A DNA stretch of 64,000 nucleotides. Source: an uncultured Flavobacteriaceae bacterium (GTDB lineage Bacteria; Bacteroidota; Bacteroidia; Flavobacteriales; Flavobacteriaceae). How positions within the stretch are numbered: position 1 is the first letter of the stretch; every line of letters begins with the position of its first letter. Positions 1,089 to 18,262 of this stretch are shown here, in pieces. The DNA lies in assembly GCA_947497145.1 (NCBI GenBank), contig CANMFQ010000003.1:124001-188000 (forward strand), read 5' to 3'. Made by a program: the position numbers and the translations under genes. The notes below the pieces were generated by a model. The model was not told the origin of the DNA and made no database searches. It was given only the letters and a program-made list of their open reading frames with translations.

Positions 1089-1997
1089 TTAATATTTAAG
1101 GTTCTCATCTTTATCCCATAACCCCCAATAGGCACCAACGTCACCTTCAGCCCCTACTTTCCATGACTCATCAAATGATGAAAAATAGAACATTTCAATA
1201 GAATCTTTAGCTGCCCACAATTGTGCATTGATGAAGTATTTCATTGCATTTTCCTCTGACGAAACCGCTCCTTTTAAACTACTTCCCTTACTTGGCCAAC
1301 CTGTTTCGGTAATAATCACTTTTTTACCTTTTCCTGCATCAGTTGCTTGGCCAAACATTTGTTGCATGTGATTCAGAGAATGTTCAAGGCTACAGCCTTC
1401 CCAATAAGGGTAACAATTTGATAATATAACATCACAAGCCTCTGTAATACGCGGTCGATGTGAAAATTCGTAGTATGCATCTACGTACCCAACAGTGATG
1501 TTTGGCAGTGCTTCTTTTACCTGATAAATATAGTCGAGCAATTGGTCTTCGGTCAAATCATTTCGATACATAACCTCATTGCCTACAGCAGCAATGTCAA
1601 CGCAGCCTTCTTTTGCTAATGCAATCAAACTTTCTATTTCAGCTTTGTTCACCTCCAAATCATCACCTAACCAAGCGCCGACCAAGGTTTTTAAGCCATT
1701 TTGATGCGCAATACGAGGTATGTGCTCATTACCTTCTATACAAGAAAATGAGCGTACCCATTTTGTATAGGGTTTTATGATTTCAATTCTACGTGTCACC
1801 TGTTCTTCTGTAATGAGATCTCCTGGTTTTTGCCCATCTTCGTACATACTAAAACATATACCATGCATCCCATTAGCTAATGTAGCTCTCCATAATTTTT
1901 TTAGTTCTTCAGTAGTATATTTACTAAAATCAACACCTTTATAATCAGTTAATTCGGCTGATTGTATCAAATAATCGTGCTCTCCTCTATATGACAT
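1089..1997 (-). CDS. GH17 beta-1,3-glucan hydrolase, no signal peptide
   Basis: A 302-aa glycoside hydrolase of family 17 (clan A TIM barrel), expected to act on beta-1,3-glucan or its oligosaccharides. The acid/base Glu is E141 in VGNEV and the nucleophile E231 in ITETGWPS, both intact. The protein starts MSYRGEHDYL with no signal peptide or lipobox, so a cytosolic location is inferred; the other GH17 of the locus is a lipoprotein. Last gene of the minus-strand locus, 100 bp after a small membrane protein and just before a strong terminator. It could work on imported oligosaccharides together with the phosphorylase at 7085-10483; transglycosylation is also known in GH17. Confidence 0.85.
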   Translation of the reverse strand: MSYRGEHDYLIQSAELTDYKGVDFSKYTTEELKKLWRATLANGMHGICFSMYEDGQKPGDLITEEQVTRRIEIIKPYTKWVRSFSCIEGNEHIPRIAHQNGLKTLVGAWLGDDLEVNKAEIESLIALAKEGCVDIAAVGNEVMYRNDLTEDQLLDYIYQVKEALPNITVGYVDAYYEFSHRPRITEACDVILSNCYPYWEGCSLEHSLNHMQQMFGQATDAGKGKKVIITETGWPSKGSSLKGAVSSEENAMKYFINAQLWAAKDSIEMFYFSSFDESWKVGAEGDVGAYWGLWDKDENLKY

Positions 1998-2097
1998 TAT
2001 CTTTTACTTTTAATGTTTTGTCTTAACTTGGTTTTATTTAAAAATTTAAATTATATACTTAAAGGTTTTTCCACATAAAACATCGTTTGAAAATACC

Positions 2098-2733
2098 TTA
2101 AAAAACTCCTCTACAATTTTTTCTTGAATAAATTTTGATGCGCTCTACTTCTTTTGCTCCTGCTGGTATTTCTTCTAGTTTTAATCCAGGGTAATCGTCA
2201 GCATCTCGCCATTTTTGTATGGTAGAACTAAAGAACGATGAGGCGGCATCATCTGCTTCGTAAACAATCAAATCATAGGCCTCTCCCAAATCTCCTCCGA
2301 AACGGGTAATAACCTGCCATTCTCCGTCTCTTTTGTATGATGTATTGGTATGATCGGATTGTGGATAATACCTATCGTCAGTAGGCCTAACCATTACCCA
2401 AATATCTTTTTTAAAGGACTCAGGATACACACCCATCGTTAAAATACGGCAATCCACAGAATCTTGATTTATTGGAGAAATAATCTTAACCGTATTCACT
2501 GGGCCACTTATCTTTAACTTTTTTCCTTTTGAAACTTGTTCCATTCGGGTATTCACATTGACTAAATCTGATGAATAACTACCATACATCATCATCAAAA
2601 AACCAATGATTCCCATAGGCACGCCCAATTTGGAACTTAGCAACCCTTTACCCGAATTTCCTTTTTTCATCCCGAGAATAGCAAGTAACACAAGTAAAAT
2701 TCCTATTCCTATAATTATAATTTTTGTTGACAT
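2098..2733 (-). CDS. Small membrane protein of unknown function in the glucan locus
   Basis: 211 aa. A hydrophobic segment spans residues 4-21, a short basic/Gly-rich stretch follows, and a second hydrophobic segment lies near 38-55. The ~155-residue remainder is soluble with mixed charge. I recognise no family. It sits 47 bp downstream of the sugar symporter and 100 bp upstream of the cytosolic GH17, on the same strand, so it is probably co-transcribed. Two N-terminal membrane segments fit an inner-membrane protein that exposes its C-terminal domain. A link to transport is inferred from position only. Confidence 0.6.
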   Translation of the reverse strand: MSTKIIIIGIGILLVLLAILGMKKGNSGKGLLSSKLGVPMGIIGFLMMMYGSYSSDLVNVNTRMEQVSKGKKLKISGPVNTVKIISPINQDSVDCRILTMGVYPESFKKDIWVMVRPTDDRYYPQSDHTNTSYKRDGEWQVITRFGGDLGEAYDLIVYEADDAASSFFSSTIQKWRDADDYPGLKLEEIPAGAKEVERIKIYSRKNCRGVF

Positions 2734-2780: not shown

Positions 2781-4211
2781 TTATATAACTCCTCTTCTTT
2801 CCTCTAGTTGTTTTTTAATTTCTATAGCTCTTTCTTCAGATAGGTCGTATTTCCACATTACCCAAATGGCCAAGCCTGCCGTTACTACCGGAATAACTAT
2901 ATCTGCAATTCTTAACTGTGTTAGCGTCTCAACGGTTTGTGTAGCCGCATTACCATCAAACCCAATTGCTTTTAAAACGGCTCCGCCTAAAACTAGTGCC
3001 AAGCCTTGTCCAAGCTTTACAACCCACCAATACAAGGCGCCAAAAGTACCTTCTTTTCTTGGCGCACCATTCGTAAGTTCGTCCAAATCACACACATCGG
3101 CAGTCATACTCATCATTAGGGTGAATAAACTTCCTAAACCGAATGACATTAGCGGTATTGGAACAAAAGACAACCAAATATTCTCAGGAGTAAAAGCCCA
3201 CCACTTCATGGCATACCCAACAATAGAAATTGCTGTTGAAATAATGAAAGCGTTCTTTTTTCCCCATTTTTCTGCCATTTTAGACACAATTGGAATGACT
3301 AAAAATGCCGAAACCAAAGCGCCAATAGAACTAAACCAGGCAGGCCAAGTAGACGTAGCTTCATAACTTCCGTTAAAAATGTAAAAAACGAAAATAAAGA
3401 AACTAAAAGATGCTACTATTTGGTACCCATTAAATATTAAAAAAGTAGCCCCACATAATTTCATAAAAGGCTTATTCTTTACGGCTTCTTTGATACTGAC
3501 AATTAGGTCCTTTAAATTAGTAAATATTGAGCTAAACGATAATTTTTTTCTATTCTCCATCTTACCAGCATCTTTTCCTCTACAAAAAATAGCTGGTAAA
3601 AGACCAAGAAATAAACAAGCTACGCCAACATATAACGCCATAGTTCTAACGCCTTCTGCCTGATTACTAAAAATATCAGGATCTGCAATAATTACCCAAA
3701 ACCAAGGTACTATAACCCAAGCTAATAAACCTACTGTTTGAGAAAAAGCCATTAAGCGTGTACGCTCGTTATAATCAGAAGTCATTTCATAACCCAAACC
3801 AACCAAAGGTGTTGCGAACATGGTATTACCAATAAGAAAAACCATTGACATAATTAGGAAGAACCAAAAATTATAATCTGAAGAGTTATTTTCATCAAGC
3901 TGCCAAAGAAGTACAAAGGTAATTGCACTTAAAACACCACCTACAAGAATATAAGGTCTTCGTCTTCCCCATTTTGAACTGGTATTATCAGAGATAAACC
4001 CCATAATTGGATCGGTAATAGCATCAAAAAACCGAGGTAACCCACCCAAAAGACCCGCTAAAAAAGGATCCATCCCAAAAGCTGTTAACAAGAAGAACAT
4101 AAAGAAGCCTAAAGCTCCTGGGTATAAATTCAATACCAAATGTCCTGCACCAAAGGCGGCTTTTTGCCCTAAGGGGACTTTGTCTTTTGGAAGTGTTTTT
4201 ACTTGACTCAT
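2781..4211 (-). CDS. GPH-family (MFS) sugar:cation symporter
   Basis: 476 aa with about 12 hydrophobic segments. The N-terminal part has the pattern of glycoside-pentoside-hexuronide:cation symporters: a GGLPRFFDAITDPIMG stretch near residue 60 followed by a basic loop SKWGRRRPYI. Such proteins import mono- and oligosaccharides or glycosides with H+ or Na+ across the inner membrane. It lies 15 bp after the GH30 gene. With no other inner-membrane sugar transporter in the locus, it is the likely importer of the beta-glucan oligosaccharides or glucosides produced outside. Confidence 0.85.
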   Translation of the reverse strand: MSQVKTLPKDKVPLGQKAAFGAGHLVLNLYPGALGFFMFFLLTAFGMDPFLAGLLGGLPRFFDAITDPIMGFISDNTSSKWGRRRPYILVGGVLSAITFVLLWQLDENNSSDYNFWFFLIMSMVFLIGNTMFATPLVGLGYEMTSDYNERTRLMAFSQTVGLLAWVIVPWFWVIIADPDIFSNQAEGVRTMALYVGVACLFLGLLPAIFCRGKDAGKMENRKKLSFSSIFTNLKDLIVSIKEAVKNKPFMKLCGATFLIFNGYQIVASFSFFIFVFYIFNGSYEATSTWPAWFSSIGALVSAFLVIPIVSKMAEKWGKKNAFIISTAISIVGYAMKWWAFTPENIWLSFVPIPLMSFGLGSLFTLMMSMTADVCDLDELTNGAPRKEGTFGALYWWVVKLGQGLALVLGGAVLKAIGFDGNAATQTVETLTQLRIADIVIPVVTAGLAIWVMWKYDLSEERAIEIKKQLEERRGVI

Positions 4212-4226
4212 AATTTTCTGATTTAG

Positions 4227-5702
4227 TTATTGGTTTTCTACACTATTTGCTCTATTATGCTTATTGATTACTATTGTTTGAATCGCCTGAGCGCTTATTT
4301 TTATTTTAATACTTTTTTCTTCTAAAGAAAGACTGAAGTCTTTGTCTGCTTCGTGCTGATTAAATACCACTACCGCTATAGATCCATCTGGGTTTTCACA
4401 TGCTGTGGTGAATATCGAGTCATCCTTTTTCTCCATTCCAATTCTTACCGCCCCTGGGCGTATGTACTTACTAAAATGTACCATGGTATAATAGATCGGT
4501 GTCATGTAAACCTCATCTTTTTCAAGATTGACAATTACCGGTGCAATACACCAGTTTTTAAACCAGTTTGGTCCTCCTTTTATATCTAAAACCATATTCC
4601 AATCTACCCAACCGTCTACCCAATTGTTTAAACAACCAATAATATCCCTGGCATAACGATTTACGGGTGCATACTTTGGGTGCAAATGCTTATCCTCTTC
4701 TTGAGCCCAATCAAATCCCCAATCGGTGGCCTCTTTTTTCCAATACCACGCATCATCTTGCCATACGGGCACCTGAGCATCTATACACGCTTCTGATTGG
4801 ATTAAAAGCTTATTTGGCGCCTTATGATGTGCATATTGCAATTCTTCAGGAAATATAGCGAAGGTACTTGCATACCAGTGAATGGCCGTACCATCAAAAT
4901 ATTTTGATGTTTCTACATTTTTGTATTGAGCATCTACCCATTCTTTTAAATGTTCTCTGTTTTGATCATACCCTAAAATCTTCAGGTCACCTTTACCTTC
5001 TGCCTCCAGTTTGGGGCCTAAATGATTTTGAACAAAATCGGTCATTTCTTCAGGAGTGTAATGCATACTTTCCCAGTTATTCCCATTTCCCAGTGGTTCG
5101 TTTTCGACCGTAAACCCCCAAATATCAATTCCTTCATGGGTGTAAGCATCTACGTATTTCGAAAAAAACAAGGCCCAGGTATCATAATACTCAGGAAGTA
5201 ATTTACCGCCTACCCAGCTTTTGTTATCCTTCATCCAAGGTGCAGCCGTCCATGGCGAAGCAAAGATTTTAAATCCTTCTTCAGAAGCGTTCATTGCGTC
5301 CTTAATCATAGGAATCAAATCGGCTTTATCTTCTTCAATTGAGAAATGTTCTAAGTCTTTATCTCCTTCAACCGGACTGTAAGAATAATTACGCAAAGAA
5401 AAATCGCACGAATTCATATGGGTTCTGGTCAAAGAATAATTTGCTCCATCTTTACCAAAATAGGCGTCAATAATTTTTTTTCGATTTCCTTTACCAAGTT
5501 TATTCAACAGATAAGCCGACGCTTTTGTAAACGCACCTCCGAAACCCGTTATGGTCTGGAATTTTTCTTCAGGCATTAATTTTATGCCAACTGGGTTATC
5601 CCCAGTCGAAAATTCAGTAACAGGTGTTAACTTATTCCCGCTTGCCGAAGTTTCATAAACTTCAACCTTTAACGGTTCTTGTTTTTCTTGGCAATTATAC
5701 AT
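4227..5702 (-). CDS. GH30 beta-glucanase/beta-glucosidase, signal peptide missing
   Basis: 491-aa family 30 glycosidase, a family that includes endo-beta-1,6-glucanases and glucosylceramidase-like beta-glucosidases. GFGGAF near residue 53, acid/base E202 in VENEP and nucleophile E304 in IQSEA are all visible. In this locus it would remove or cut beta-1,6 branches of laminarin-like glucan. The frame opens MYNCQEKQEP: a Cys followed by polar residues, like the mature end of a lipoprotein, but only three residues precede it. The frame extends just 16 more codons upstream to a TAA without another ATG. The signal peptide is therefore absent, disrupted, or started at an unusual codon. It lies 62 bp after the GH17 lipoprotein gene. 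Confidence 0.85.
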   Translation of the reverse strand: MYNCQEKQEPLKVEVYETSASGNKLTPVTEFSTGDNPVGIKLMPEEKFQTITGFGGAFTKASAYLLNKLGKGNRKKIIDAYFGKDGANYSLTRTHMNSCDFSLRNYSYSPVEGDKDLEHFSIEEDKADLIPMIKDAMNASEEGFKIFASPWTAAPWMKDNKSWVGGKLLPEYYDTWALFFSKYVDAYTHEGIDIWGFTVENEPLGNGNNWESMHYTPEEMTDFVQNHLGPKLEAEGKGDLKILGYDQNREHLKEWVDAQYKNVETSKYFDGTAIHWYASTFAIFPEELQYAHHKAPNKLLIQSEACIDAQVPVWQDDAWYWKKEATDWGFDWAQEEDKHLHPKYAPVNRYARDIIGCLNNWVDGWVDWNMVLDIKGGPNWFKNWCIAPVIVNLEKDEVYMTPIYYTMVHFSKYIRPGAVRIGMEKKDDSIFTTACENPDGSIAVVVFNQHEADKDFSLSLEEKSIKIKISAQAIQTIVINKHNRANSVENQ

Positions 5703-5764
5703 TAGAGCGCTAATAGGGACATTTGGTGAACTTGATTGTTTTTATGTTATATTTTCAGCAGGTG

Positions 5765-7060
5765 CTATCGGTTTTCCATTACTTCATTTATGGTAGGTGG
5801 CACCAATACCGTTTTCATCAATTCGGCTTTATTTCCATCAAAGGTTTTAGTAATCGGATTTCCATTTCTTGTCAAGGCATCAAAAATGCCCTCATCTACC
5901 AAATCCCAAAGCGCATATTTTGCTTTTCCATCAATCGTAAACAAACCAAAATGGTTTTCTGACCCTTCTGCATTTCCAGCGTCTTTCCATCGTTCGTTAA
6001 AGGCTTCGAAATAAAAACAGGATATGCCCGATTTATTGGTCCAATCTCTCATGAGTTGATAATACAACCCTTCTTTATACTCATCAGTAGCTTTTGAACC
6101 TGTAGGGCCATAAAAGCCATTTGAAACCGTTGCCCAACCTGTTTCACCGATATGAATTGGTTTGTCTACACCTATACTTTTCATATAACCCGAAACACTA
6201 TCGTATTGGGCTTTTGCAAACTCCAAAGCACGAAGCATTGCGGCATCTATCTTTTCTTTTTCTGAAAGCCTTACCTCTTCATTTGGAACACCCCAAAATA
6301 TAGGGTTGTAATGTGTGTTGTGATACGGATAGGTATGCATAGAAACATAGTCTACCGCGTTCACCAATTTTTCAAGATCTTCGGTGTGGTACTCAGAACC
6401 ACCGCCACCCCATGATGAAAAATCATCAGAACTCGTGATCCATAAATCTTTGGGAAGTTTGCCCTCGCTCTTCAAAGCTTGCAAATGATTTACCCATTTT
6501 AAAATTACACCAGGCTGTACATAATAGCTCTCGGCCCATTTAACCATAGCTTCGTTTCCGACCGCCATAACTTTGACAATATCTGGGTATTTACTGGCTA
6601 ATTCGGCCGCAGTTGCTACTTCAACAGCATTGCGCTCACTTTCTTCGTAATGGTTTGGGGTTTGATCAGTAAAAGCATTTTTGCAATCGATCCACACACC
6701 GAGCATTACATACATCTCAAAATTTGAATCTTCTTTTTTTAATTCGCTAATCGCTTTTAAAAGGTTAGCCGCTTGCGGGAAATGAACTTTATAGGTACGT
6801 ACAATCTTGATACCCATGGCAGCAAGTATTTTCATGTCTTCTTTGAGCTCATCAAGCGTTGGCTCAATGTCATGGTCTACATATCTATACCCACCATAAG
6901 AAATTGCCATATAATCTGGGTTGCCTAAAATATCCTTGGCACTTATTGCTGTTGTTTCTTTCACGGTATTTACGTTGTTTTTTGTGTTGGTATTGTTTTT
7001 ACATGAAAATACAATCAAAATCAATACAATATAACTTGTTGTTCTAAAATAGCTTTTCAT
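5765..7060 (-). CDS. GH17 beta-1,3-glucanase lipoprotein
   Basis: Start chosen at the second ATG (the upstream ATG adds MKLGI), which gives a clean signal MKSYFRTTSYIVLILIVFSC with lipobox Cys20; about 431 aa. Catalytic residues of family 17 are E170 (VGNEA) and E306 (GETGWA). Expected to cut beta-1,3-glucan or its oligosaccharides while anchored to a membrane on the periplasmic or outer side. It follows the phosphorylase gene by 24 bp. Compared with the 302-aa GH17 at 1089-1997 it is longer and lipid-anchored, so the two GH17 enzymes appear to serve different compartments. Confidence 0.87.
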   Translation of the reverse strand: MKSYFRTTSYIVLILIVFSCKNNTNTKNNVNTVKETTAISAKDILGNPDYMAISYGGYRYVDHDIEPTLDELKEDMKILAAMGIKIVRTYKVHFPQAANLLKAISELKKEDSNFEMYVMLGVWIDCKNAFTDQTPNHYEESERNAVEVATAAELASKYPDIVKVMAVGNEAMVKWAESYYVQPGVILKWVNHLQALKSEGKLPKDLWITSSDDFSSWGGGGSEYHTEDLEKLVNAVDYVSMHTYPYHNTHYNPIFWGVPNEEVRLSEKEKIDAAMLRALEFAKAQYDSVSGYMKSIGVDKPIHIGETGWATVSNGFYGPTGSKATDEYKEGLYYQLMRDWTNKSGISCFYFEAFNERWKDAGNAEGSENHFGLFTIDGKAKYALWDLVDEGIFDALTRNGNPITKTFDGNKAELMKTVLVPPTINEVMENR

Positions 7061-7084
7061 GATTCCTAATTTCATTTGTTCAAA

Positions 7085-10000
7085 TTATTTTATGATAGTA
7101 ACCAACATACTATGCACCTCCCCGCTTCTTTCAAAGATGCTTTGAGAAATAGTTTGGTTCAAGCTTAGGCTGTTAAACTCAAGAACCGACGTATCGTTCA
7201 TATACACTTTAAGGCCTTCTTTATCGCCTAATTTATACATGATGGGTATTTGACAATAGGTAAAACCGAGCATGTTTTTTTCTAATTGGAGTTGTTTTGA
7301 TGCTCCGTTTACATCAATATATCGAAACTCCACAGGTTTTTTTAGAAATTCGTCTTTACGTAATAAGTAGGGTTTAAACATCAACCTACCCTGTTCGACA
7401 AAAACACCCAATTCGCCGAACCTGCTTAAAATATCTTCTTTTACCTGACCAGTCATCCCTGGTTGCTGAGCACCCTTACCCATAGGAGTGTGGGAATACG
7501 GATCAGTAGGAAAGGCGCCGTATAAGGCTGGAGATTTATGTACGCCAATGCCCTCATTTATCTCATAATAATGCTCCAATAACCTACCAATGGTCTCATC
7601 GCTTTCTTTTGCTTCTATAGCCCGCAAACAGGTTTCTTGAACAGCAAGCAACAACTTAGAAACCATATGCCAATAAATGGAGCCCAAACCTTCATACCCA
7701 AAAAATGTTCCTGATCTTCCCGTAAAGGACTTGTGATCAAAGATTTCTTCGAAAATAGTGTGCAACAACTCACTATCTTTTTCAATCAACTCTCCATATT
7801 CATCTTGTGGTAAAGCTGCCAATGCTTTCTTAAGACTTTCAACATTATTGAAGGAGCCATTGAAATGATAGTTGCCGCGAATATCGCGTTCTACAATTTG
7901 CGAATTACCATCTTTGGTAAGTCGCTTTACTAGCTCCGATTTTTCAATTTGCTCTGATGGTATATTATTCTTATCATTGAATCCTGCCAATTCTTTATTA
8001 GGATAAAGGAGATAGCTATATTGATCAGCCCTAAATAAAGCGCTGCTTTTCAAGGCATCTAATAGTGCCAAAGAATCTACTGATGAAACATAACCAGAAC
8101 TCAATGCCGCTACCTGCCCCTCTAGCATTTCAGACAAGTACGAAATTGAAACCTCGGTTTCACTTTCTAGAGTCATCAAATTATAGGCATGATATAGATT
8201 ATCTGCACGCTTGTTGGCGGCAATACTATGGTCTACATATTTTAGGGTAACACTGATAAATTCTTGTACGCTACTTTTTGCGAGCCCTTTTACCGCTCCG
8301 TTAAAACCATTTTTGTAAATGGTATTTCTAAAGATACTACCGGCATTTCCCAAACCATCCATTACGCTTTTCCTATCGCTGTTTGAGATATTGACGGATA
8401 GCATAGATATATTGTCGAGCAGTGTTGTTTTTACCTCGTTAAAAAATACTAACAAGGCTTCAGAAATCTCATAATCTTTCTCTGGAATCTCCTCGATAAT
8501 GCTTTCAAAGAATCTTAGAAACCTTCTCAGGTAGTTCAATGTCACCATTGAAACACCGTTTCCAACCAATGCGTTATTGGCATCATTCCATTCTGGGCGC
8601 TGCGTATTCATCCAAATACCTGCTTCAGGAATAAAATTAGACACCTTAGCCAATATGGTCGCCAGCAGTTTTTCAAGCATGTTTACCTTATAAACACCCC
8701 CATTCTCATTTTTCAATAAGGCAGCATCTGCTCCTAAAACAGCACGCTCTTGATGAATTTTTGCGTCTAATTCTTCATCAAATACGATGGTATCTTTAGG
8801 ATTTTCCAAAATAGATTGGTAGTCCTTAATTCTATAGGGCACATTGGCATATACAAAGATTTTTTCAGTAAAATAGTTGGCTAAATTACCAGGATAATGG
8901 TTCTCACTGAATTCAAGAAATTTCAGCAAATATATAATTTGATGATCTCCCCAATACCCAATATAAGACCACGGATCATCGGGTTCAATAATCTCCCAAT
9001 CAAACCCATTCTTGGTTACTCGATACGGATTATATCCATCAAAAGTAGTTGCATTCAAAAACTTAAAAATCATGCTATCAATAAACGCTGGGTAAGCATG
9101 TGCCAACGCTTCCCAGTTTTGAAAGATGTCGCGCCAGTTTCCTTCATAGTCCAATATCTTCTTCCCATCCTCTGTTGTAGTATTTATAGAAAATCGGTTC
9201 CAAGGTCGGCTAGGATCACCATGTCGCCTACTGAACTTCAAAGGCAAATACTCCAAACACAGTCTGCTAAAGTCTTTATCATCACTTTGGGCAGCGATAT
9301 TTTCAAGTTCTTGAAGTGTAAACTTGTCGGCAAAGCCTTCTATGACATGTACATTTTCATCAAAAACATTTTGATTGGCCTTAACTACATATTCCTTAAA
9401 ATCATCCTTTTCAATGTGATAGTTGTTATCAAAAATTCCACCCCGCATTATATTGAACATTACATTTGAATAATGTCGTGTATTACTTTTGTGATCCTCA
9501 GTAATCTGCTTTCCATCTGAGGCATAGGCCAATTTTAGTAAATTCTGAGTACCCAATTCCACATCGTCAAAAACAGCCGCCCAAATTTGGTCGTTTGACT
9601 TGATCTCATCAGAAAGATTCACAACTTTAGCCGAACTCTTATTTACATCAGCTATGGTGGCCCATTGTTTTTCTTTATTTGGACCAATATTTAGGTCAGA
9701 AACCGTAAAAAAAGCGCCTCTCTCAGCCTTAATATCAAGTTCTTCTTCAACCGGATTTCCATTTCGGAAATTATCAAGCTGTAAAGATGACAATAAGATT
9801 TTTGAATTTTCAAGCCCCATAGACCAAACAACATTTGCTTTCAGTGCTTCACTAGGTTCGGCTTTATCAACTATAATGGCACTCAAGGCAAAAACCCCAA
9901 GTCCTGATTCTTTTATCAATGCACTTCTTTTATAAGCATCAACAAGATTACTGCTTGCCTGCTGCGTACTGGCAGCAACACCGTAAGGCATAATGTTCTG

Positions 10001-10483
10001 TATGCCATCCAAAACGGTTATCTTAATCGTATTGCTAGAAAGATTGACCAGCCTACTTTTTCTAACAAAACCAAAGCGATTACTTGAATTCCATTGATAT
10101 TGATAGGTCAGATCTAGATCGTGATTGATTTCTTCAAAAATAATTTTATTTCCAAATTCGTTCTTGTATAGATTTCTGGTACACCTGAAAACCCCTGTAT
10201 ATCTATTAGAGAAAGGCTCCCAGATAAGCTTTTGTCCAGATGGTTTTTCTATCTGAAAAATGGATTTACTTCCAGTTGTATCATAAGATTCTGTAATCTT
10301 ATCGTCTGTATAATATGGAAACAAAGCATTATCACAGTCCTTTCGACCAGCGCTTAAGCCACCATTACTCGAAATGAACATCCAGTGATTTGAATCACTG
10401 ACGATGCTGATAAAAAAAGGGCGGAGTGCATCACTTTTCTCTATCTTATAATACCCTTCATTTTCAATTTTGATATAATCCAT
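7085..10483 (-). CDS. GH149-type beta-1,3-glucan/oligosaccharide phosphorylase
   Basis: 1132 aa without signal peptide, so cytosolic. Size and sequence fit GH149, whose members phosphorolyse beta-1,3-glucans to glucose-1-phosphate and a shortened chain. Features are an N-terminal beta-rich region, a central helical barrel with RHGDPSRPWNRFSI near residue 416, NWRDIFQNWEAL near 450, WNDANNALVG at 632-641, and a C-terminal beta-sandwich. The best alternative is another long inverting phosphorylase family (GH94, GH161), but the length and company favour GH149, whose bacterial genes are known to sit with GH16/GH17/GH30. It is the first gene after a 134-bp spacer with a hairpin, so it may head its own transcription unit. 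It gives the pathway an ATP-saving last step. Confidence 0.75.
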   Translation of the reverse strand: MDYIKIENEGYYKIEKSDALRPFFISIVSDSNHWMFISSNGGLSAGRKDCDNALFPYYTDDKITESYDTTGSKSIFQIEKPSGQKLIWEPFSNRYTGVFRCTRNLYKNEFGNKIIFEEINHDLDLTYQYQWNSSNRFGFVRKSRLVNLSSNTIKITVLDGIQNIMPYGVAASTQQASSNLVDAYKRSALIKESGLGVFALSAIIVDKAEPSEALKANVVWSMGLENSKILLSSLQLDNFRNGNPVEEELDIKAERGAFFTVSDLNIGPNKEKQWATIADVNKSSAKVVNLSDEIKSNDQIWAAVFDDVELGTQNLLKLAYASDGKQITEDHKSNTRHYSNVMFNIMRGGIFDNNYHIEKDDFKEYVVKANQNVFDENVHVIEGFADKFTLQELENIAAQSDDKDFSRLCLEYLPLKFSRRHGDPSRPWNRFSINTTTEDGKKILDYEGNWRDIFQNWEALAHAYPAFIDSMIFKFLNATTFDGYNPYRVTKNGFDWEIIEPDDPWSYIGYWGDHQIIYLLKFLEFSENHYPGNLANYFTEKIFVYANVPYRIKDYQSILENPKDTIVFDEELDAKIHQERAVLGADAALLKNENGGVYKVNMLEKLLATILAKVSNFIPEAGIWMNTQRPEWNDANNALVGNGVSMVTLNYLRRFLRFFESIIEEIPEKDYEISEALLVFFNEVKTTLLDNISMLSVNISNSDRKSVMDGLGNAGSIFRNTIYKNGFNGAVKGLAKSSVQEFISVTLKYVDHSIAANKRADNLYHAYNLMTLESETEVSISYLSEMLEGQVAALSSGYVSSVDSLALLDALKSSALFRADQYSYLLYPNKELAGFNDKNNIPSEQIEKSELVKRLTKDGNSQIVERDIRGNYHFNGSFNNVESLKKALAALPQDEYGELIEKDSELLHTIFEEIFDHKSFTGRSGTFFGYEGLGSIYWHMVSKLLLAVQETCLRAIEAKESDETIGRLLEHYYEINEGIGVHKSPALYGAFPTDPYSHTPMGKGAQQPGMTGQVKEDILSRFGELGVFVEQGRLMFKPYLLRKDEFLKKPVEFRYIDVNGASKQLQLEKNMLGFTYCQIPIMYKLGDKEGLKVYMNDTSVLEFNSLSLNQTISQSIFERSGEVHSMLVTIIK

Positions 10484-10617: not shown

Positions 10618-12840
10618 TTACTCTAGAGTTATATCATCAATATAATAGGTTCCATCAGTAGTTATTGCACTATCATTCATATCATTATCCACTTTTATCA
10701 CCAAATGGTTATATGCGGTTGGTCCTCCTATTAAGTCCGTAAAAGTAAATTCGACTTCTGTCCATTGATTAGCGTTCTCAATCGTTACAAAAACCGGTGC
10801 CGGATTTCCGGTAACAGGATCTGTCTGTGGATTTACTGCCAACTCAAATCGAAATACTACATTTGCTTTGCTTGAATACACTTTCAACTTAAAAGTATTG
10901 GTTGTAGTTAAATCAAAATTACTAGCAAAAGTATTCTGTACTCCTGCAAAGAACTCTGACCCCGCTGGCTTATCAACCTTCAACACAAAATCTGACGTAT
11001 TGATTCCGGTTTTAGAGGGATTAGCCGCTAACTCAGAGGTTAAGCCATTTCCAAAATTATTGGAAGCAAGGAAGGTCTCACAACCTTCAAAATTTACAGG
11101 AAGTGCTGTTGCGGCTATTTCCATATCTGTACAGCCACCTCCAGCTCCACCGCCGTTTGTATCACTACCATTTCCACCTGCAACAAGCGAAACCTTATCT
11201 ATTACTACAGTACCTACTTCGGCACCCATATCAAAGAGTATACGACTATTTGCTCCTCCAAAATCATTTGCCGCTAACTGTAATGTAAATGTTTGCGTAT
11301 CGGTTGTAAGGTTTACAGAAGGTGCCGTATTTGTGAACGGAGCTTCATTGAGTCCGATACCTGCAAGCATAGTACGCGCTACACTTGAAGATGCTTCAAA
11401 AGATAAAATGTAATTGGTGCCCTGTGTAATTTCTACCACCTGGCTTAAGTTCACAGAGAACGGATCTCCAGCTGCAGTAACATCAACTGAATTGAAACTA
11501 TTTCCATTTTCGGTAACAATATTCCTACCGTTACCAATCCATGGGTCGTCACCGCTTTCAAAATCACCATTCGTTAACAAGCCGTCATCAAAATCACCTT
11601 GACCGTTTGTATCACTACCATCTCCACCTGCAACAAGTGAAACGTTATCAATTACTACAGTACCTACTTCAGCACCCATATCAAAAAGTACACGACTATT
11701 TGCTCCTCCAAAGTCATTTGCCGCTAACTGTAATGTAAATGTTTGCGTATCGGTTGTAAGGTTTACAGAAGGTGCCGTATTTGTGAACGGAGCTTCGTTG
11801 AGTCCGATACCTGCAAGCATAGTACGCGCTACACTTGAAGATGCTTTAAAAGATAAAATGTAATTGGTGCCCTGTGTAATTTCTACCACCTGGCTTAAGT
11901 TCACATCGAACGGATTTCCAGCTGCAGTAACATCAACTGAATTGAAACTATTTCCATTTTCGGTAACAATATTCCTACCGCCACCAATCCATGGGTCGTC
12001 ACCGCTTTCAAAATCACCATTCGTTAACAAGCCATCATCAAAATCGCCTTGACCGGTTGTATCACTACCATCTCCACCTGCAACAAGCGAAACGTTATCA
12101 ATTACTACAGTACCTACTTCGGCACCCATATCAAAGAGTACACGACTATTTGCCCCTCCAAAGTCAGCTGCTGAAAGTTGCAAGGTAAATGTTTGTGTCT
12201 CGGTAGTTAAATTTACCGTTGGTGCTGTATTGGTAAAAGGATCTTCATTTAAACCAATACCTGCTAAAATAGTACGCTCACGGTCAGAAGAAGCGTTAAA
12301 GGTTAAAATATAGTTGGTACCCTGTGTAATTTCAACAACCTGACTAATATTTACATCAAACGGGTTTCCGGCAGTCTCTACGTTGACCAAGTTAAAGCTG
12401 TTATCACCTTCGGTAGTCACATTAAGGCCACCTCCTATCCAAGGCTCATTACCACTTTCAAAATCGCCATTGGTCAACAACCCTGAATCAAAATCAGGAC
12501 TAGGTGTAGGTATCTCCACCATAATATCATCTGAGAATGTAGCAGTAGCCCCAGAAACATTAGAAGCCTCAAGTATTACCGTATGCGTACCATTTTCAAA
12601 AGTTTTTACGGGGTTGATTTCAGTAGAAGTAGTACCATCACCAAAATCCCATTTGTAGCTATTTGCCTTCTCTGATATATTAATAAAGGTAACTGTACCA
12701 GTGTCTTCATTTTGAGTATGGGTAAAGCCGGCTACTACCTCCGGTAAATCTGTGCTGTTATCATCGTCATCGCACCCAAAAAAGGAAAGGGCCAACAGCA
12801 TTGTAAAAACGTATTTTAAATTTTTAAATATTTTTTTCAT
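10618..12840 (-). CDS. Glycan-binding lipoprotein: PKD + three CBM4/9-like repeats + C-terminal CBM-like domain
   Basis: 740 aa. Signal peptide with lipobox FFGC (Cys23) followed by DDDD. Residues ~33-110 form a PKD domain (YKWDFGDGT motif). Residues ~117-566 are three near-identical 150-aa units that each begin with LLTNGDFESG and look like CBM4/9-type beta-sandwiches. The last ~170 residues form another beta-sandwich ending in TYYIDDITLE. No catalytic module is seen, so this is probably the surface glycan-binding protein of the locus. The gene is 5 bp downstream of the GH16 laminarinase gene, and the two proteins are likely partners at the cell surface. Confidence 0.85.
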   Translation of the reverse strand: MKKIFKNLKYVFTMLLALSFFGCDDDDNSTDLPEVVAGFTHTQNEDTGTVTFINISEKANSYKWDFGDGTTSTEINPVKTFENGTHTVILEASNVSGATATFSDDIMVEIPTPSPDFDSGLLTNGDFESGNEPWIGGGLNVTTEGDNSFNLVNVETAGNPFDVNISQVVEITQGTNYILTFNASSDRERTILAGIGLNEDPFTNTAPTVNLTTETQTFTLQLSAADFGGANSRVLFDMGAEVGTVVIDNVSLVAGGDGSDTTGQGDFDDGLLTNGDFESGDDPWIGGGRNIVTENGNSFNSVDVTAAGNPFDVNLSQVVEITQGTNYILSFKASSSVARTMLAGIGLNEAPFTNTAPSVNLTTDTQTFTLQLAANDFGGANSRVLFDMGAEVGTVVIDNVSLVAGGDGSDTNGQGDFDDGLLTNGDFESGDDPWIGNGRNIVTENGNSFNSVDVTAAGDPFSVNLSQVVEITQGTNYILSFEASSSVARTMLAGIGLNEAPFTNTAPSVNLTTDTQTFTLQLAANDFGGANSRILFDMGAEVGTVVIDKVSLVAGGNGSDTNGGGAGGGCTDMEIAATALPVNFEGCETFLASNNFGNGLTSELAANPSKTGINTSDFVLKVDKPAGSEFFAGVQNTFASNFDLTTTNTFKLKVYSSKANVVFRFELAVNPQTDPVTGNPAPVFVTIENANQWTEVEFTFTDLIGGPTAYNHLVIKVDNDMNDSAITTDGTYYIDDITLE
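11143..12492 (-). repeat. Three tandem 450-bp units coding CBM domains
   Basis: The period is exactly 450 bp: the same block recurs at about 11311, 11761 and 12211. The two 3'-most units of the gene (11143-12042) are almost identical at DNA level, while the first (12043-12492) is clearly more diverged. This indicates recent unequal duplication or gene conversion. Confidence 0.9.
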
Positions 12841-12845: not shown

Positions 12846-13673
12846 TTAGTTTTGGTTTTCATTCATATATTTATATACCCTTACATAGTCGACCAACATG
12901 GTTTGTGGAAAAACGGTTTCTTCGTTTGGAGCGCCTACAAAAGTGCCGCCTACGGCAAGATTCATGAGTAGGTAAAAAGGTTTGTCAAACACCCAATCAC
13001 CAGTAACATCTTCAGGCGTTATTTGATTGTAGAGTACATCGTCAACATAAAAGTTGACATATTCGGGGCCCCACTCAATTCCAAAAATGTGGAAACCGGT
13101 ATCTAAACGGTCATTGGGCAAGGTGTATTCCTTGGATATGGCACTACCTCCACTATAACCAGGGCCATGTACACTGCCTATCAAAACACTTGGGGCTTGC
13201 CCTCTAACTTCCATGATGTCAATTTCACCTGCTGCTGGCCACGGATTTTCATCAATATCAGCACCCAACATCCAAAAGGCTGGCCATATTCCTTGTCCAT
13301 AAGGAAGTCGCATACGCGCTTCAAAACGGCCATACTTTTGTTCAAATTTATTCTTAGTCAAAAGTCGTGCTGAAGTATATGAAGAACCTTCGAAGTCCTC
13401 CCGTTGCGCTGAGATTAGCAATACACCATTTTGAACTTGTACGTTCTCGGTTCGGTCGGTATAATATTGCAATTCATTATTGCCCCAGCCATTAGAGCCA
13501 GTACCGATATCAAAGCCCCACACATCGCTATTCGGGGCGCCATCTGTATCAAACTCCTCTTGTAAGGTTAGTTCAGAAAAATTGAACACCGTTTGTGTTT
13601 CATCTGTATTGCAACTCATTATGAGCAGCAACATCAGCGGTAACATACTTATTTTGTTTATTATTTTTTTCAT
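12846..13673 (-). CDS. GH16 laminarinase (endo-beta-1,3-glucanase) lipoprotein
   Basis: 275 aa. The signal peptide ends in LLLIMSC (Cys21, lipobox), giving an anchored enzyme. The GH16 active-site motif GEIDIMEV gives nucleophile E150, D152 and acid/base E155. The beta-bulge form (an extra residue, I-M) and the substrate-cleft stretch GIWPAFWMLG fit bacterial laminarinases. It makes the first endo-cuts in beta-1,3-glucan at the cell surface. It sits between the BIG2 lipoprotein (21 bp upstream) and the CBM lipoprotein (5 bp downstream), so it belongs to the surface block. Confidence 0.92.
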   Translation of the reverse strand: MKKIINKISMLPLMLLLIMSCNTDETQTVFNFSELTLQEEFDTDGAPNSDVWGFDIGTGSNGWGNNELQYYTDRTENVQVQNGVLLISAQREDFEGSSYTSARLLTKNKFEQKYGRFEARMRLPYGQGIWPAFWMLGADIDENPWPAAGEIDIMEVRGQAPSVLIGSVHGPGYSGGSAISKEYTLPNDRLDTGFHIFGIEWGPEYVNFYVDDVLYNQITPEDVTGDWVFDKPFYLLMNLAVGGTFVGAPNEETVFPQTMLVDYVRVYKYMNENQN

Positions 13674-13694: not shown

Positions 13695-15101
13695 TTAACG
13701 GAAGTATACATTGTCTAATAAGAAATCAATATCACCCACAAAAACTATCTGAGCCAAATTGTTCTTTTGATTTGTCAAACTACCAGTTAATGGTACTTCA
13801 ACAGTAATCCATTGACCTGCGGGAAGCTGAGCTGGGGTGAGGTTTAACCTTGTCTCAGCATCATCCTCTGTAGGCTGTCCGGTAAAAATATCCGTATCGA
13901 GTTGCCCATTGGTTCCTCTGTCTCTTACTTGAATTTGGAAATTGCCAGTGGCTGTATCATTCGTATAGATATCCAAAAACAAGGACCCTTTTTCAGTAGC
14001 ATCAATCGTAGGATTTTGGAACTGGATACCCACAAAATTAAGGTTAGAATAGAACTTGAAATCATCTCCGTTCACCGTAATTTCACTAATTTCTGTATTT
14101 CCAAAATCTGCCCTAAAGGTATCGACAGGCACATCAGTATACTGATTGCTAAACAAGGAAATGACTTCCGACTCTGGAAATTGAGGAGTTGGAGCGGAGA
14201 CAATGTCACCCGTTGAAGTAACTGCCAAAGAACCATTAGCTTTTACACCAGCGATACTGGCTGTAATCATAGCTGTACCACTTCCAACAACCGATATTTC
14301 TCCAAGCTCATTAACTTGTGCAACATCAGTATTTGAAGATGTAAACGTAAAATAGGATGGTGCCGCCGAAACAGTTTGATTGACACCTGATGCCAAATTA
14401 AAGGTTTGAGTAAGATCATTAATCAAAATGTTCGCCCCATTAAAAGTTTGTTGAACTAAATCCCTACCGTTAAAAATAGCAGGAGTTGGTTGTGCAATAG
14501 TGCCTAATTTTTCAAATTTAACTTCGTCAAACCATAATACATAACCTCCTTCATCGCCCTCAAAAGATGCACCCTCGCCCAAAAAGAACAAGCCAGTTTC
14601 ATTGGTTAGTTTAGAAGGGTCTGGAATAGGTACCACGTATTTTTCCCATCTAGTACTAACTCCTATATTGTTGCCCGTGACCAAGAATTTATTATTTGTA
14701 GGTCCAGAAATACCAAAACCTACGGCGTCTATGGTCGCTGCTTGCGATGCTTTTGCATAAAATGTAAGTGCATCAAAACCAGAAAGGTCTCTGTTCGCTG
14801 TGGTATTGAAGGTAGCGCCTAGGAAACCATTTCCAAAGGAAGGGACATCAAATCGTATTGCAGAAGTACCTGAAAACACATCGTCGGTTACTACACTGAA
14901 CGCTTCTGGGTCTGCCCCTGCATCCACAAAAGGAAAGTAATCAAGACCCGAAGAGAACCCATCAATAAAAACATCGCCATTAGCAGGAAACGTTGCAAAC
15001 TCCACTTCATCCGAAACATCTCTTTCACAACTTGCAAACACAGCAAAAATGAATGCCGACAAAAGCGAAAACCTTATATCTATATATTTCTTTTTTTTCA
15101 T
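13695..15101 (-). CDS. BIG2-domain lipoprotein, putative glycan-binding protein
   Basis: Start set at the ATG for MKKKKYIDIR, because it gives a lipoprotein signal (FAVFASC, Cys25) and avoids overlap with the upstream gene; 468 aa. Residues ~30-205 form a beta-sandwich resembling galactose-binding or CBM-like folds. Next comes a BIG2/Ig-like stretch near 250-300 (NTDVAQVNELGEISVVGSGT), then a second CBM-like domain that ends in DFLLDNVYFR. No catalytic motif is visible. Placed between the glycosidase/beta-barrel fusion and GH16, it is a likely surface glycan-binding component, perhaps standing in for SusD. That role is inference. Confidence 0.75.
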   Translation of the reverse strand: MKKKKYIDIRFSLLSAFIFAVFASCERDVSDEVEFATFPANGDVFIDGFSSGLDYFPFVDAGADPEAFSVVTDDVFSGTSAIRFDVPSFGNGFLGATFNTTANRDLSGFDALTFYAKASQAATIDAVGFGISGPTNNKFLVTGNNIGVSTRWEKYVVPIPDPSKLTNETGLFFLGEGASFEGDEGGYVLWFDEVKFEKLGTIAQPTPAIFNGRDLVQQTFNGANILINDLTQTFNLASGVNQTVSAAPSYFTFTSSNTDVAQVNELGEISVVGSGTAMITASIAGVKANGSLAVTSTGDIVSAPTPQFPESEVISLFSNQYTDVPVDTFRADFGNTEISEITVNGDDFKFYSNLNFVGIQFQNPTIDATEKGSLFLDIYTNDTATGNFQIQVRDRGTNGQLDTDIFTGQPTEDDAETRLNLTPAQLPAGQWITVEVPLTGSLTNQKNNLAQIVFVGDIDFLLDNVYFR

Positions 15102-15112: not shown

Positions 15113-18100
15113 TTATTTGCCTATGTTGATATGAATGTATGTTCTGATTTCCCACTCATTTCCACCACCAAATCCGACAGGACTGATAGTAGGCTCGGTT
15201 GGAAATTCTCCTGATGCCGCATTTGGAAGATATCTCGGTGAAAATTCATCAAGTGATCTCCAAGTTCCTCGAATTCCGATTTGAGTACTTGGCAGAATGA
15301 ACCAATCTGGTTTTCCAATGGTCGTTGAAAGATCCAACATCAATTGAACAGGATATGTTAAGTTAAAATCGCGGTGGTAATCAAAAGGCCCCCAGTCATT
15401 AATCTTAAAAGCATGCTGCAGTTTTATATTCTTGTACAACAATCGTACATCACCACCAATACGTTCAATTAACCTATCATCACTACCGTTGGCTTGAGCA
15501 TTTCCAAAATATAAATTCGAGATTATTCCAAACTCTGAATTCACCTTAGAAACGATGCGAGCATGTGTCTCCCATAAATCTTGAGCAGGAACGGAATTAG
15601 GAAAGGCAAACAAGGTACGCGTACCTAAAAATCCGATTGCAGCATCTTGTGTGGTAGGATGGTGTCTAAATACAAAACCAACACTAGCGGCCAGTTTTGC
15701 ATCCTCTGCCCTATCATTGTCCCATTCATACATCCAAGTACCTGGGGTGGGGTCAAATGTTAGCAATAACTCTCCCGCTACTGTTTCTCTATTAGACCTA
15801 ACCACAAATGGGTCATCGAGAATATTCCGCAATCTTCCTGGCCCTGAAACATCGTTTGGCATGGGGCCAACAAGTGGTTTCTGCCATAAAAAGTTTGGTG
15901 CGACCTGCACCTTTCCTACGTTGAACGTAAAGCCTGTCAAGAAATTAGTTTGATTGCCGCTACCACTATCTTTCAACTTCCAGCCAGTAAACGTTTTTGT
16001 GTAGTCAGCTCCGCCATTGGCCACCAGACCCATTGCCGCACCCTGTGCATACCAATTAAAAGTACCTTTAGAGTATGTTATTTTAGCTTTACCACCCCAG
16101 TTATCCTTTGAATTCACTTTGTCGGTGAAAACGGTATAATTCCCAGGCTCACCTTCAGTAAACTGAAATTCTCTACCGTTTAATGGCTCACCGCCCCATA
16201 ATCCTCCAACAGAAACGCCGAAATTTCCAAATTCTCTTTCTATATTAAGCGTTGCTCTTCTAGTTCTTGGGTTGGGTACTGCTAAAGATGAAACAATGGT
16301 TCCAAAATCATCAATATCCTCATGAAAAATACCGGTAACTTCGTAGTGTCCGATTTTGGTACGATATTTTAAAAGTACCGCCGGATTCGCACCCCACCAT
16401 AATTGCGGGCCAAATGCAGCCTTTAATCCTTTTAAAACTCCTTTTCCGTCTACTTCAATACCCGATATTTCACCGTTATAGATATCTAAATTAGGACCGT
16501 AGTTTGCTTCTGGGTACAGACCGAAAAAATCTCCTTCATAACCCCAATGGTAATGACCAGTTCTATAAAAGCCTCTTACATCAAAACTCTTTGCATTCCA
16601 TTCGAAAGAAGCATTATATACCTGAACTCTATTGAAGTCATTTAACGTAACAGGACCTTCATCTGAATTTACTTCAACGGGTCGTCCTCTATTTTCATAA
16701 AAGATTTCATCAATAGGGTTTTGGGCTACGTTACCTAGAACATTAAAATTCACTTCTGCTCTCATATTTGATGCAGGTTCACCTTGAACGCCTACAAAAT
16801 AAGACTGCATATGATCAAAACCCAATTCATTAGGGTAGGTAGTTTCTTCAGGGTCGGCAGTTTCAGGGGTCGTTAAAAGATTGCCCCCAGTATTAAAAGT
16901 GGTAAATTTTGCCTGCAAATTGCTTAAACGAATCTTGCTGCTTGACTCTCCCACCAAAGCGGCCTTATCACCCCTTGCTTTTAATACAGCATCCATTAAT
17001 TCAATGTTGTCAAAATAGTTTGTAACAAAATCCATGTCAACCCCTTCAGCATATGGATTTAGTTTATGCGCCTCTTTCAATGCATAATATGCAGCTCTAG
17101 GGTAAAGTTCATAAAGTCCCCTAGGATTGGTTGCGCCCTTGGCGCAGATACCAAACCATTCCTCGTTCATATTATTAGCACCTTCCTTGGCAAGATCCCT
17201 TGGGTAACCGCCATTAGACCAAGAAGCGTTGTTATCGTGTACATCGGCATTTTTTCTATCGTCAAAACCGAACTTCCACCACCCGTCACTAAACTGAAAG
17301 GTAAATCCACCAATAGAATTATTAGCTTTACCTAGACCAGCGGAATTTTCGTAAATCTCTTTCCAGTTACCTACCAAATAATAGGCTTGTGAATATTGGT
17401 CTTCTTTACTTTCTGCAGCATTGAAAGCATCCGCTCCAAACTCAGTAAACATTACCGGCTTATTGATTTTTTCTTTTACCACCTCAAACATATCACCGAA
17501 TGATACACCTCTATACGTGTTTGTACCGTAAATATCAATATCTGGACATTCTTCCGCCACAATATCAATAAAGAGGACATCTCCGTTACAGATAGCGACC
17601 GGATGCGAACCATCTATTGACTTCATCATCTTTGCCGCCTTGTTCATTAATTGATACATAGGTCTTCCGCGTACTTCGCCAATTGCATTTATCTTCTCTT
17701 CACCATCAGGAAAATCTTCGGTTTCCGCTCCGGCCCAAAAAAGTCCGTAGTTGTTTTCATTTCCTAATAAATATAATAGCAGACCAGGAGTATCTTTGTA
17801 CCCTTTAACAAGGTCTTCCATTTCTTTTAATAGGAATTGTTGTGTTCGTTCTTCACCGTATTTGGTAACTGGTACCCACGCCCCATCAAGGGTGAGACCA
17901 TAACGACCAAACGAGTGATTTAACATGGTGTAGATACCGTAGTTTTCGTAAATGTATTTTATCCATCTAGCGGGCACACCCGTATATTGACGAATAACAT
18001 TAACGCCCATGTTTTTTAGCAGTGACATTTCTGTATCTAAACCAGCTCTGATAACATCGTCTGGTTTTTTCCAGAATTTAGCATCCACCGTGTTGGCACC

Positions 18101-18262
18101 AATAGGAATGTAATCCCAATTCATTCCATTGATCATGAAGTCTTCGCCATTGACGACTAACTTCATTCCTTCCTCATTATTGACAACCGAAACTTTATCT
18201 GCTTGCGCAAAAGTCATTGTGGTCATTAAGGATAGGAGTAATCTGAAAAAGTTTTTCTTCAT
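15113..18262 (-). CDS. Glycosidase (GH2-like TIM barrel) fused to an outer-membrane beta-barrel-like domain
   Basis: 1049 aa, signal peptide residues 1-20 (MKKNFFRLLL...TFAQ). Residues ~35-410 form a clan-A type TIM barrel related to the catalytic domain of GH2 enzymes; E169 (LLGNENN) and E274 (TEFGADAF) are the candidate acid/base and nucleophile. Residues ~440-1049 have no enzyme motif. They show many amphipathic strands rich in Tyr/Trp/Gly with polar loops and end on a strand (EIRTYIHINIGK), as in porin-like barrels. The protein opens the surface block, nearest to the regulator. The barrel might let oligosaccharides pass in a locus that has no SusC. The exact GH family is unsure. Confidence 0.75.
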   Translation of the reverse strand: MKKNFFRLLLSLMTTMTFAQADKVSVVNNEEGMKLVVNGEDFMINGMNWDYIPIGANTVDAKFWKKPDDVIRAGLDTEMSLLKNMGVNVIRQYTGVPARWIKYIYENYGIYTMLNHSFGRYGLTLDGAWVPVTKYGEERTQQFLLKEMEDLVKGYKDTPGLLLYLLGNENNYGLFWAGAETEDFPDGEEKINAIGEVRGRPMYQLMNKAAKMMKSIDGSHPVAICNGDVLFIDIVAEECPDIDIYGTNTYRGVSFGDMFEVVKEKINKPVMFTEFGADAFNAAESKEDQYSQAYYLVGNWKEIYENSAGLGKANNSIGGFTFQFSDGWWKFGFDDRKNADVHDNNASWSNGGYPRDLAKEGANNMNEEWFGICAKGATNPRGLYELYPRAAYYALKEAHKLNPYAEGVDMDFVTNYFDNIELMDAVLKARGDKAALVGESSSKIRLSNLQAKFTTFNTGGNLLTTPETADPEETTYPNELGFDHMQSYFVGVQGEPASNMRAEVNFNVLGNVAQNPIDEIFYENRGRPVEVNSDEGPVTLNDFNRVQVYNASFEWNAKSFDVRGFYRTGHYHWGYEGDFFGLYPEANYGPNLDIYNGEISGIEVDGKGVLKGLKAAFGPQLWWGANPAVLLKYRTKIGHYEVTGIFHEDIDDFGTIVSSLAVPNPRTRRATLNIEREFGNFGVSVGGLWGGEPLNGREFQFTEGEPGNYTVFTDKVNSKDNWGGKAKITYSKGTFNWYAQGAAMGLVANGGADYTKTFTGWKLKDSGSGNQTNFLTGFTFNVGKVQVAPNFLWQKPLVGPMPNDVSGPGRLRNILDDPFVVRSNRETVAGELLLTFDPTPGTWMYEWDNDRAEDAKLAASVGFVFRHHPTTQDAAIGFLGTRTLFAFPNSVPAQDLWETHARIVSKVNSEFGIISNLYFGNAQANGSDDRLIERIGGDVRLLYKNIKLQHAFKINDWGPFDYHRDFNLTYPVQLMLDLSTTIGKPDWFILPSTQIGIRGTWRSLDEFSPRYLPNAASGEFPTEPTISPVGFGGGNEWEIRTYIHINIGK

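Follow-up and report, generated by a model that had tools for sequence, protein, structure and literature searches.

Ten co-oriented genes on the minus strand of a 64,000-nucleotide stretch of DNA (hereafter the window; C3:124001-188000, from contig CANMFQ010000003.1 of an uncultured Flavobacteriaceae bacterium) form a beta-glucan operon that lacks a SusC/SusD pair and opens with a glycosidase fused to a domain resembling an outer-membrane beta-barrel. We give a probability of about one half to the reading that this operon is a second, SusCD-independent arrangement for the uptake of laminarin (beta-1,3/1,6-glucan), paralogous to a polysaccharide utilisation locus (PUL) of canonical type on another contig of the same genome. 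The comparisons described below support the view that a SusCD-less beta-glucan operon headed by such a fusion is a conserved design and no accident of one genome.

The operon spans positions 1089-18262, with intergenic gaps of 5-134 bp. Its products were assigned to families with Pfam and NCBIfam profiles, the domain scan covering the open reading frames (ORFs) in the first 24 of the 64 kb. These profiles, together with lipobox motifs and structure models, bear out the content proposed in a first-pass annotation of the window, namely glycoside hydrolase (GH) families GH16, GH30 and GH17 (two genes), a GH149-like phosphorylase, two binding lipoproteins and a symporter. The phosphorylase is a true GH149, scoring 1770.7 bits against the NCBIfam equivalog NF058639 (cut-off 1150), and the products of 2098-2733 and 13695-15101 matched no family in the scan. 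Carbohydrate-active enzymes (CAZymes), binding lipoproteins, a regulator and a transporter are co-localised here as in a canonical PUL. The absence of the SusCD pair noticed earlier is also confirmed, given that no SusC or SusD family was matched among the ten genes, and that none of the 26 matches to SusD in the genome (PF07980, with every one of 31 candidates scored) falls inside the window, nor does any of the 41 SusC-type matches listed (TIGR04056, 38 of 92 candidates scored, so that more may exist).

The source genome (5.1 Mb in 198 contigs) does carry a conventional counterpart. Contig C4 holds a co-oriented series of regulator, SusC, SusD, PKD lipoprotein, GH16, GH149, GH17 and symporter genes, as in a canonical laminarin-type PUL, and the best match of its SusD in the PDB (E 5.1e-71) is 6gcz, which we take to be the laminarin-binding SusD of a Gramella. 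Window and C4 products are 63% identical for GH149, 61% for GH17, 45% for the symporter, 45% for the regulator and 42% for GH16. Both GH16 and all three GH17 genes of the genome lie in one or the other of these loci, and the sole GH30 match is in the window. Because the C4 genes are paralogous to those of the window, and the other GH16 and GH17 genes of the genome occur only there, the window locus is a twin of the C4 PUL, with another protein pair in the place of SusC-SusD. The idea that this locus is the only laminarin equipment of the genome must therefore be given up. The first-pass annotation would have taken a co-regulated beta-1,3-glucan SusCD elsewhere in the genome, needed for growth, as refuting its view; the C4 pair supplies half of this, a SusCD that may or may not be co-regulated and needed.

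Tandem SusC-SusD pairs are also present on C3 outside the window (C3:110-120.5 kb, or L010:6219-16557), beginning approximately 4.5 kb past the last gene of the operon. We provisionally discarded these pairs as the likely missing transporter because an opposite-strand AbiEi_2-type gene and a 637-residue DUF5018 lipoprotein intervene and because the best PDB matches of the two SusDs are 9sje and 3qnk, with 6gcz lower in both lists. The cluster is probably another PUL. After its tandem pairs come a large protein of FG-GAP/VCBS-like type and a ROK-like regulator, both named by eye, and the intervening AbiEi_2-type gene, of the type IV toxin-antitoxin kind, occupies positions 33-929 of the window on the strand opposite to the operon.

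The N-terminal part of the fusion has a clan-A glycosidase fold with the catalytic glutamate pair expected of GH158, and this pair is invariant in 28 of 28 sequences. GH158 is the closest family by a small distance: comparison with GH158 sequences gave E 0.0032 with phmmer, weaker than an unrelated antibody chain at 0.0017, and E 0.0014 with a profile, and in structure comparison GH5, GH2 and GH157 lie within about 2 Z units of GH158. GH2 enzymes carry sugar-binding and Ig-like domains ahead of their TIM barrel. Membership of GH2 was rejected for the fusion, whose sole match among these domains is to the TIM-barrel model, PF02836 (22.6 bits vs a cut-off of 21). The endo-beta-1,3-glucanases BuGH158 (6pal) and GH158(Pro) (9oro) share 13-20% identity with the fusion and differ from it in that their solved chains, of 404-424 residues, are barrel-less.

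The C-terminal part is rich in beta-strands in an AF2 model of the fusion (pLDDT 66.8, pTM 0.44; the strand at residues 445-452 is of low confidence). With four short in-loop strands set aside beforehand (529-533, 536-540, 876-878 and 884-886), antiparallel strands are joined by very short turns that alternate with long loops, and the protein has a signal-like N-terminus, all of which is characteristic of outer-membrane barrels. Conservation within the domain is, on average, highest in its predicted outer loops, and two of the longer ones reach 0.93-0.94. On the strength of this model, the C-terminal domain is likely to be an outer-membrane barrel. The glycosidase/beta-barrel fusion proposed at first pass thus stands as regards its enzyme domain and the topology of its barrel, and falls short of a closed model of high confidence. 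A test for amphipathic strands gave z values of 3.8 for the barrel domain and of 1.8 and 2.9 for two SusC barrels, but we discarded this count as proof of a barrel because a carbohydrate-binding module (CBM) lipoprotein also scores (2.6).

Judged by profile and sequence comparison, the barrel-like domain belongs to no known family. In Pfam searches up to E 10, the window copy had no match in this part, the matches obtained with two of the eight members searched were weak and unrelated, and none of the eight matched a beta-sandwich family; among PDB sequences there was one unconvincing match (E 1.3). The structure comparison spans residues 16-437, lists glycosidase-type matches only and is uninformative on relatives of the barrel. 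The design of a TonB-dependent transporter, a plug within a SusC-type barrel, was not recognised, as the fusion contains no Plug at E 0.001 and a profile comparison of the domain with five SusC proteins of this genome gave a probability of 0.1, or no relation. Classical (type Va) autotransporters end in a 12-strand translocator of about 280 residues; the domain has no Pfam match to autotransporters and comprises about 600 residues and 26 strands.

Of 295 further genomes sampled from the phylum, 26 contain full-length relatives of the fusion (56-76% identity). When partial or weak matches and the source genome itself are included, the number is 42 of 296, with 254 genomes lacking a match. A profile of the barrel, scored on at most three candidates per genome, matched in 35 of 395 genomes; complete matches, in 32 of them, lie in frames of 1,046-1,084 residues, and the other three genomes hold fragments truncated at contig ends or by stops. 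Frames of this length mean that the barrel is fused in all 32 complete matches. The glycosidase also occurs by itself, for example in three relatives (L041 of G104, and others in G123 and G242) that are 51-57% identical to the glycosidase domain and whose frames of 449-465 residues are too short for a barrel. No barrel is found within 1.5 kb after the gene at L041.

Two sets of gene neighbourhoods were compared, one of 26 neighbourhoods in which opposite-strand ORFs were ignored, and one of named loci representing the best 80 of at least 557 relatives. A lipoprotein comes next after the fusion in 25 of the 26 (the exception, G144, is rearranged) and GH149 is present in every one. Likewise, the lipoprotein adjoins the fusion in 78 of the 78 loci that have a downstream ORF, and GH16 is second in 70 of 72. 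The fusion, the lipoprotein resembling a type B surface glycan-binding protein (SGBP-B) and GH16 are therefore a nearly invariant trio. The window copy of the lipoprotein, lipo486, gave a model (pLDDT 88.5) that we read as CBM-BIG2-CBM; its top Foldseek match is reelin and its second SGBP-B, with further matches to SGBP-B of Bacteroides (7kwb, 7k44) and to CBM30/CBM11 modules. As the constant neighbour of the barrel, lipo486 occupies the place that SusD has beside SusC.

What precedes the fusion is more variable. Among the 80 loci, a regulator stands directly upstream without SusCD in 50, SusC/D in 15 (contig ends, as at L111 and L156, may conceal more), an opposite-strand regulator in 7 and other genes in 8. 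SusC-SusD falls within the cluster of the fusion in 3 of the 26 neighbourhoods (G103, G226 and G053). A SusC-like gene also occurs far off at the edge of G191 and on the opposite strand in G131 and G034, and the upstream sequence in G046 is limited to 2.7 kb. Some loci are composites with the order regulator, SusC, SusD, lipoprotein, GH16, fusion, lipoprotein, GH16 and GH149. Given this co-occurrence in clusters, the fusion should not be seen as a mere replacement for SusCD. On a 107-row tree of the fusion, adjacency to SusCD is clustered but labile: the label changes 11 times, at least 8 of these being forced by supported branches, and shuffled labels change 16.8 times, with 0 of 500 shuffles as low as 11. 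Because the label changes so often, the SusCD-adjacent and SusCD-free states both appear to be workable.

The best 80 of the at least 557 loci all have Bacteroidota titles, as do both hits among 72,556 plasmid records. A Persicobacter megaplasmid carries fusion, lipoprotein and GH16, and the same trio is found in Bacteroides finegoldii (L187, NZ_OY725931.1), where the fusion is 58%, the lipoprotein 35% (to lipo486) and GH16 50% identical. The latter stretch further encodes a DUF6377 protein, perhaps its regulator, a fimbrillin-family protein, a hypothetical protein and BglX, with no SusCD among its annotated genes. Both rpsA and a gene for a valine-tRNA ligase are present in the record NZ_OY725931.1, which seems to be a piece of chromosome despite its label 'plasmid 29'.

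Some genomes have the fusion and no recognised SusD. Among the 27 near-complete genomes that carry the fusion, 22 have PF07980 and 5 lack it, and two of these five (G144 and G204) have a SusD of family PF12771. The remaining three, G066, G051 and G255, have no SusD by PF07980 and PF12771, the two families on which absence was judged (PF12741 and PF14322 were outside the search). No SusC exceeded the cut-off in G255, for which all 27 candidates were scored, or among 38 of 54 candidates in G066, and one lies just above it (375.6 vs 368.25) among 38 of 50 candidates in G051; the absence of SusC is complete for G255 alone. Within the family to which G066 belongs, PF07980 is absent from 37 of 57 genomes (28 of the 44 better ones). 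Of the uptake route of different design suggested at first pass, the design is thus conserved and extends to SusD-free genomes, and uptake through the barrel is what we infer.

We propose that GH16 and the two binding lipoproteins, presumably at the cell surface, would capture and cut laminarin, and that short oligoglucans would then cross the barrel by facilitated diffusion, without TonB drive because there is no plug. The fused GH158-like domain would cleave oligoglucans at the pore, and we lean modestly towards placing it on the periplasmic side. Periplasmic GH17 and GH30 would complete the degradation, the inner-membrane symporter would import the products, and cytosolic GH149 would phosphorolyse the imported glucans. 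The comparisons above show the gene content, the paralogy, the conserved trio, the glycosidase fold with its intact catalytic pair, the barrel-like topology and the occurrence without SusD; substrate, protein locations, passage through the barrel and its direction, and the side on which the enzyme domain lies are inferred. In its general form, this proposal describes a TonB-independent, glycosidase-coupled outer-membrane glycan importer, made up of a new family of approximately 26-strand barrels, a GH158-like enzyme and an SGBP-B lipoprotein, that would serve from marine Flavobacteriia to gut Bacteroides as a third glucan route beside SusCD and general porins. We advance this generalisation tentatively, at somewhat below even odds.

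Several observations weigh against import through the fusion. The genome owns the laminarin-type SusCD PUL on C4, 15 of 80 loci and 3 of 26 neighbourhoods have SusCD and the fusion together in a single cluster, and relatives of the glycosidase without a barrel exist. Concerning the barrel itself, model confidence is modest and closure is not seen, the count of 26 strands is our own reading of the model, the amphipathic-strand test cannot tell barrels from beta-sandwiches, and the usual terminal aromatic residue is mostly absent from the C-termini.

Among other explanations, the one that fares best, though we regard it as unlikely, casts the barrel as an anchor or a means of self-export by which the glycosidase would be presented on the cell surface, in the manner of an autotransporter, with oligoglucans entering via SusCD encoded elsewhere. 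The C4 PUL with its paralogous regulator, the shared clusters and the glycosidase-only relatives would all fit such a role. However, an anchor has no need of outer loops that are the best conserved part of the domain, the barrel is far larger than that of an autotransporter, and the fusion is present where SusD is absent. Slightly less probable still is a role as helper to a SusCD acting in trans, either as a periplasmic trimming enzyme or as an accessory porin for glucose and laminaribiose. Such a helper would be at home in the composite loci and could gain or lose SusCD neighbours as often as the tree indicates, and, for the SusCD-less cellulose cluster of Cytophaga hutchinsonii, the title of a paper cited in PMC12016534 speaks of glucose uptake by an outer-membrane protein. 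It is less easily reconciled with the 50 SusCD-less loci in which a regulator directly precedes the fusion, or with the three genomes that are SusD-free by two families.

We consider it improbable that the C-terminal domain is a soluble or surface-exposed beta-rich domain, such as a set of carbohydrate-binding repeats, instead of a membrane barrel. The modest model confidence, the limits of strand amphipathicity as evidence and the rarity of a C-terminal aromatic residue would allow it, but very short turns alternate with long loops across 26 strands and the eight members examined gave no beta-sandwich match. Finally, export or biosynthesis, in which the barrel would export a glucan or the glycosidase would trim an exported polymer, as in the export of poly-N-acetylglucosamine or cellulose, is very improbable. 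The joining of a periplasmic enzyme domain to an outer-membrane barrel does resemble the general plan of exporters, but the genes that constantly accompany the fusion serve degradation (GH16, GH17, GH30, GH149 and the symporter) and the ten genes gave no match to a glycosyltransferase family.

The operon type that we read as an uptake arrangement is already in print as the laminarin PUL of Muricauda lutaonensis (PMC13188888). In the available text of that paper, the gene set is that of the window: a LuxR regulator comes first in many clusters, followed by 'GH2', GH16, GH149 or GH3, GH17, GH30, MFS and GH17. One entry listed there, SGIU01000001 (strain 176CP4-71), is our locus L127, with the order regulator, fusion, lipoprotein, GH16, lipoproteins, an unassigned ORF, GH17 and GH30. 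By position, the gene that the authors call a GH2 beta-glycosidase seems to be the fusion. The main text of PMC13188888 has no occurrence of SusD, TonB, outer membrane or porin, and has SusC once, in a reference title.

As far as the accessible texts go, canonical SusCD laminarin PULs (Formosa, PMC6246565; North Sea variants, PMC6298971) share with the window, as does the C4 PUL, enzyme families and regulator type and, in C4, the gene order after the transporter; they differ in having SusC-SusD in place of the glycosidase-barrel fusion and SGBP-B-like lipoprotein. The atypical cellulose PUL of C. hutchinsonii, chu_1276-1280, is described in PMC12016534 as SusCD-free and as comprising a beta-barrel predicted for the outer membrane, a CBM protein of SGBP-B-like type and an endoglucanase. 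This likeness is one of gene plan, CHU_1276 may or may not be homologous to the present barrel, and that system differs in its substrate, cellulose, in sigma-factor control and in keeping barrel and enzyme separate. A GH17-MFS fusion of Formosa (PMC6246565, in part) is likewise a transporter-CAZyme fusion for laminarin, but its partner is an inner-membrane transporter, whereas here the enzyme is joined to an outer-membrane-type barrel. The same partial coverage of sources includes reports of GH149 clusters without susCD in 2018 (PMC5827456), an NS4 genome with a laminarin PUL lacking susCD (PMC10108472) and CAZyme loci from polar sediment that are devoid of susCD (PMC10811738). A GH0 gene beside GH149 in highly expressed laminarin PULs from blooms (PMC10108472) may also be the fusion, a guess made from its position. 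Literature searches, which extended to listings and text passages but not to supplements, figures or the bulk of subscription articles, gave no description of a glycosidase-barrel fusion or of a SusCD-less laminarin uptake route. What is new here is the fusion with its barrel-like domain of no known family, for which a role in uptake is plausible.

Table. Features of the operon, its regulator and the two parts of the fusion, in window coordinates.
Feature	Coordinates	Strand	Remarks
GH-barrel fusion, 1049 residues	15113..18262	-	Operon gene 1; signal peptide, glycosidase and C-terminal barrel-like domain
Clan-A glycosidase domain, fusion residues 22-440	16943..18199	-	Nearest family GH158; E169 as putative acid/base, E274 as putative nucleophile
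Outer-membrane-barrel-like domain, fusion residues 441-1049 (~600 residues)	15116..16942	-	~26 antiparallel strands; alternating long and short gaps
SGBP-B-like lipoprotein (lipo486), CBM-BIG2-CBM	13695..15101	-	Lipobox seen in sequence; constant downstream neighbour of fusion
GH16 lipoprotein, putative surface endo-beta-1,3-glucanase (predicted location)	12846..13673	-	
Lipoprotein with PKD and three CBM_4_9, putative second surface glycan-binding protein (predicted location)	10618..12840	-	
GH149 beta-1,3-glucan phosphorylase, no visible signal peptide (presumably cytosolic)	7085..10483	-	
GH17 with lipobox, putative periplasmic laminarinase (predicted location)	5765..7075	-	
GH30, putative beta-1,6-glucosidase	4227..5702	-	No in-frame signal peptide in this copy
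GPH/MFS_2 inner-membrane sugar symporter	2781..4211	-	
211-residue product, no family match	2098..2733	-	
GH17, no visible signal peptide (presumably cytosolic)	1089..1997	-	Positional counterpart of published Muricauda MlGH17B
Regulator, 930 residues, Y_Y_Y and LuxR-type helix-turn-helix	19725..22517	-	1,462 bp upstream of fusion; counted as part of unit

Some features of the individual genes deserve mention. Stops in frame, and no in-frame signal peptide, precede the first start codon of the GH30 gene (5703-5764), although the N-terminus of most listed relatives is of signal- or lipoprotein-like type; the difference in this copy may be a real change or an assembly error. The symporter ORF has 476 residues here and 777-855 in many relatives (among them L055, L056 and L057), as would fit the published MFS-GH17 fusion. 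The 211-residue product has no relative among the 26 neighbourhoods or the 80 scanned loci. The interval between fusion and regulator (18263-19724) has no listed ORF of at least 120 residues and may contain a control region. Elsewhere in the window, a proline-rich unit (PPPPPPAPKRVKKGE-like) is repeated several times close to the C-terminus of a long ORF at 25890-28397.

For marine Bacteroidota, laminarin ranks among the major foods, and the outer-membrane step of its use is SusCD wherever the portions of the cited literature available to us name one. SusCD also serves to define and count PULs, and if the SusCD-free design holds, such counts would miss a class with at least 557 relatives. The copy in a gut Bacteroides puts the question of uptake in a genus with genetic tools. 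If true, the SusCD-free design would offer an explanation for the susCD-lacking CAZyme clusters described, in the parts of these papers at hand, in PMC5827456, PMC10108472 and PMC10811738.

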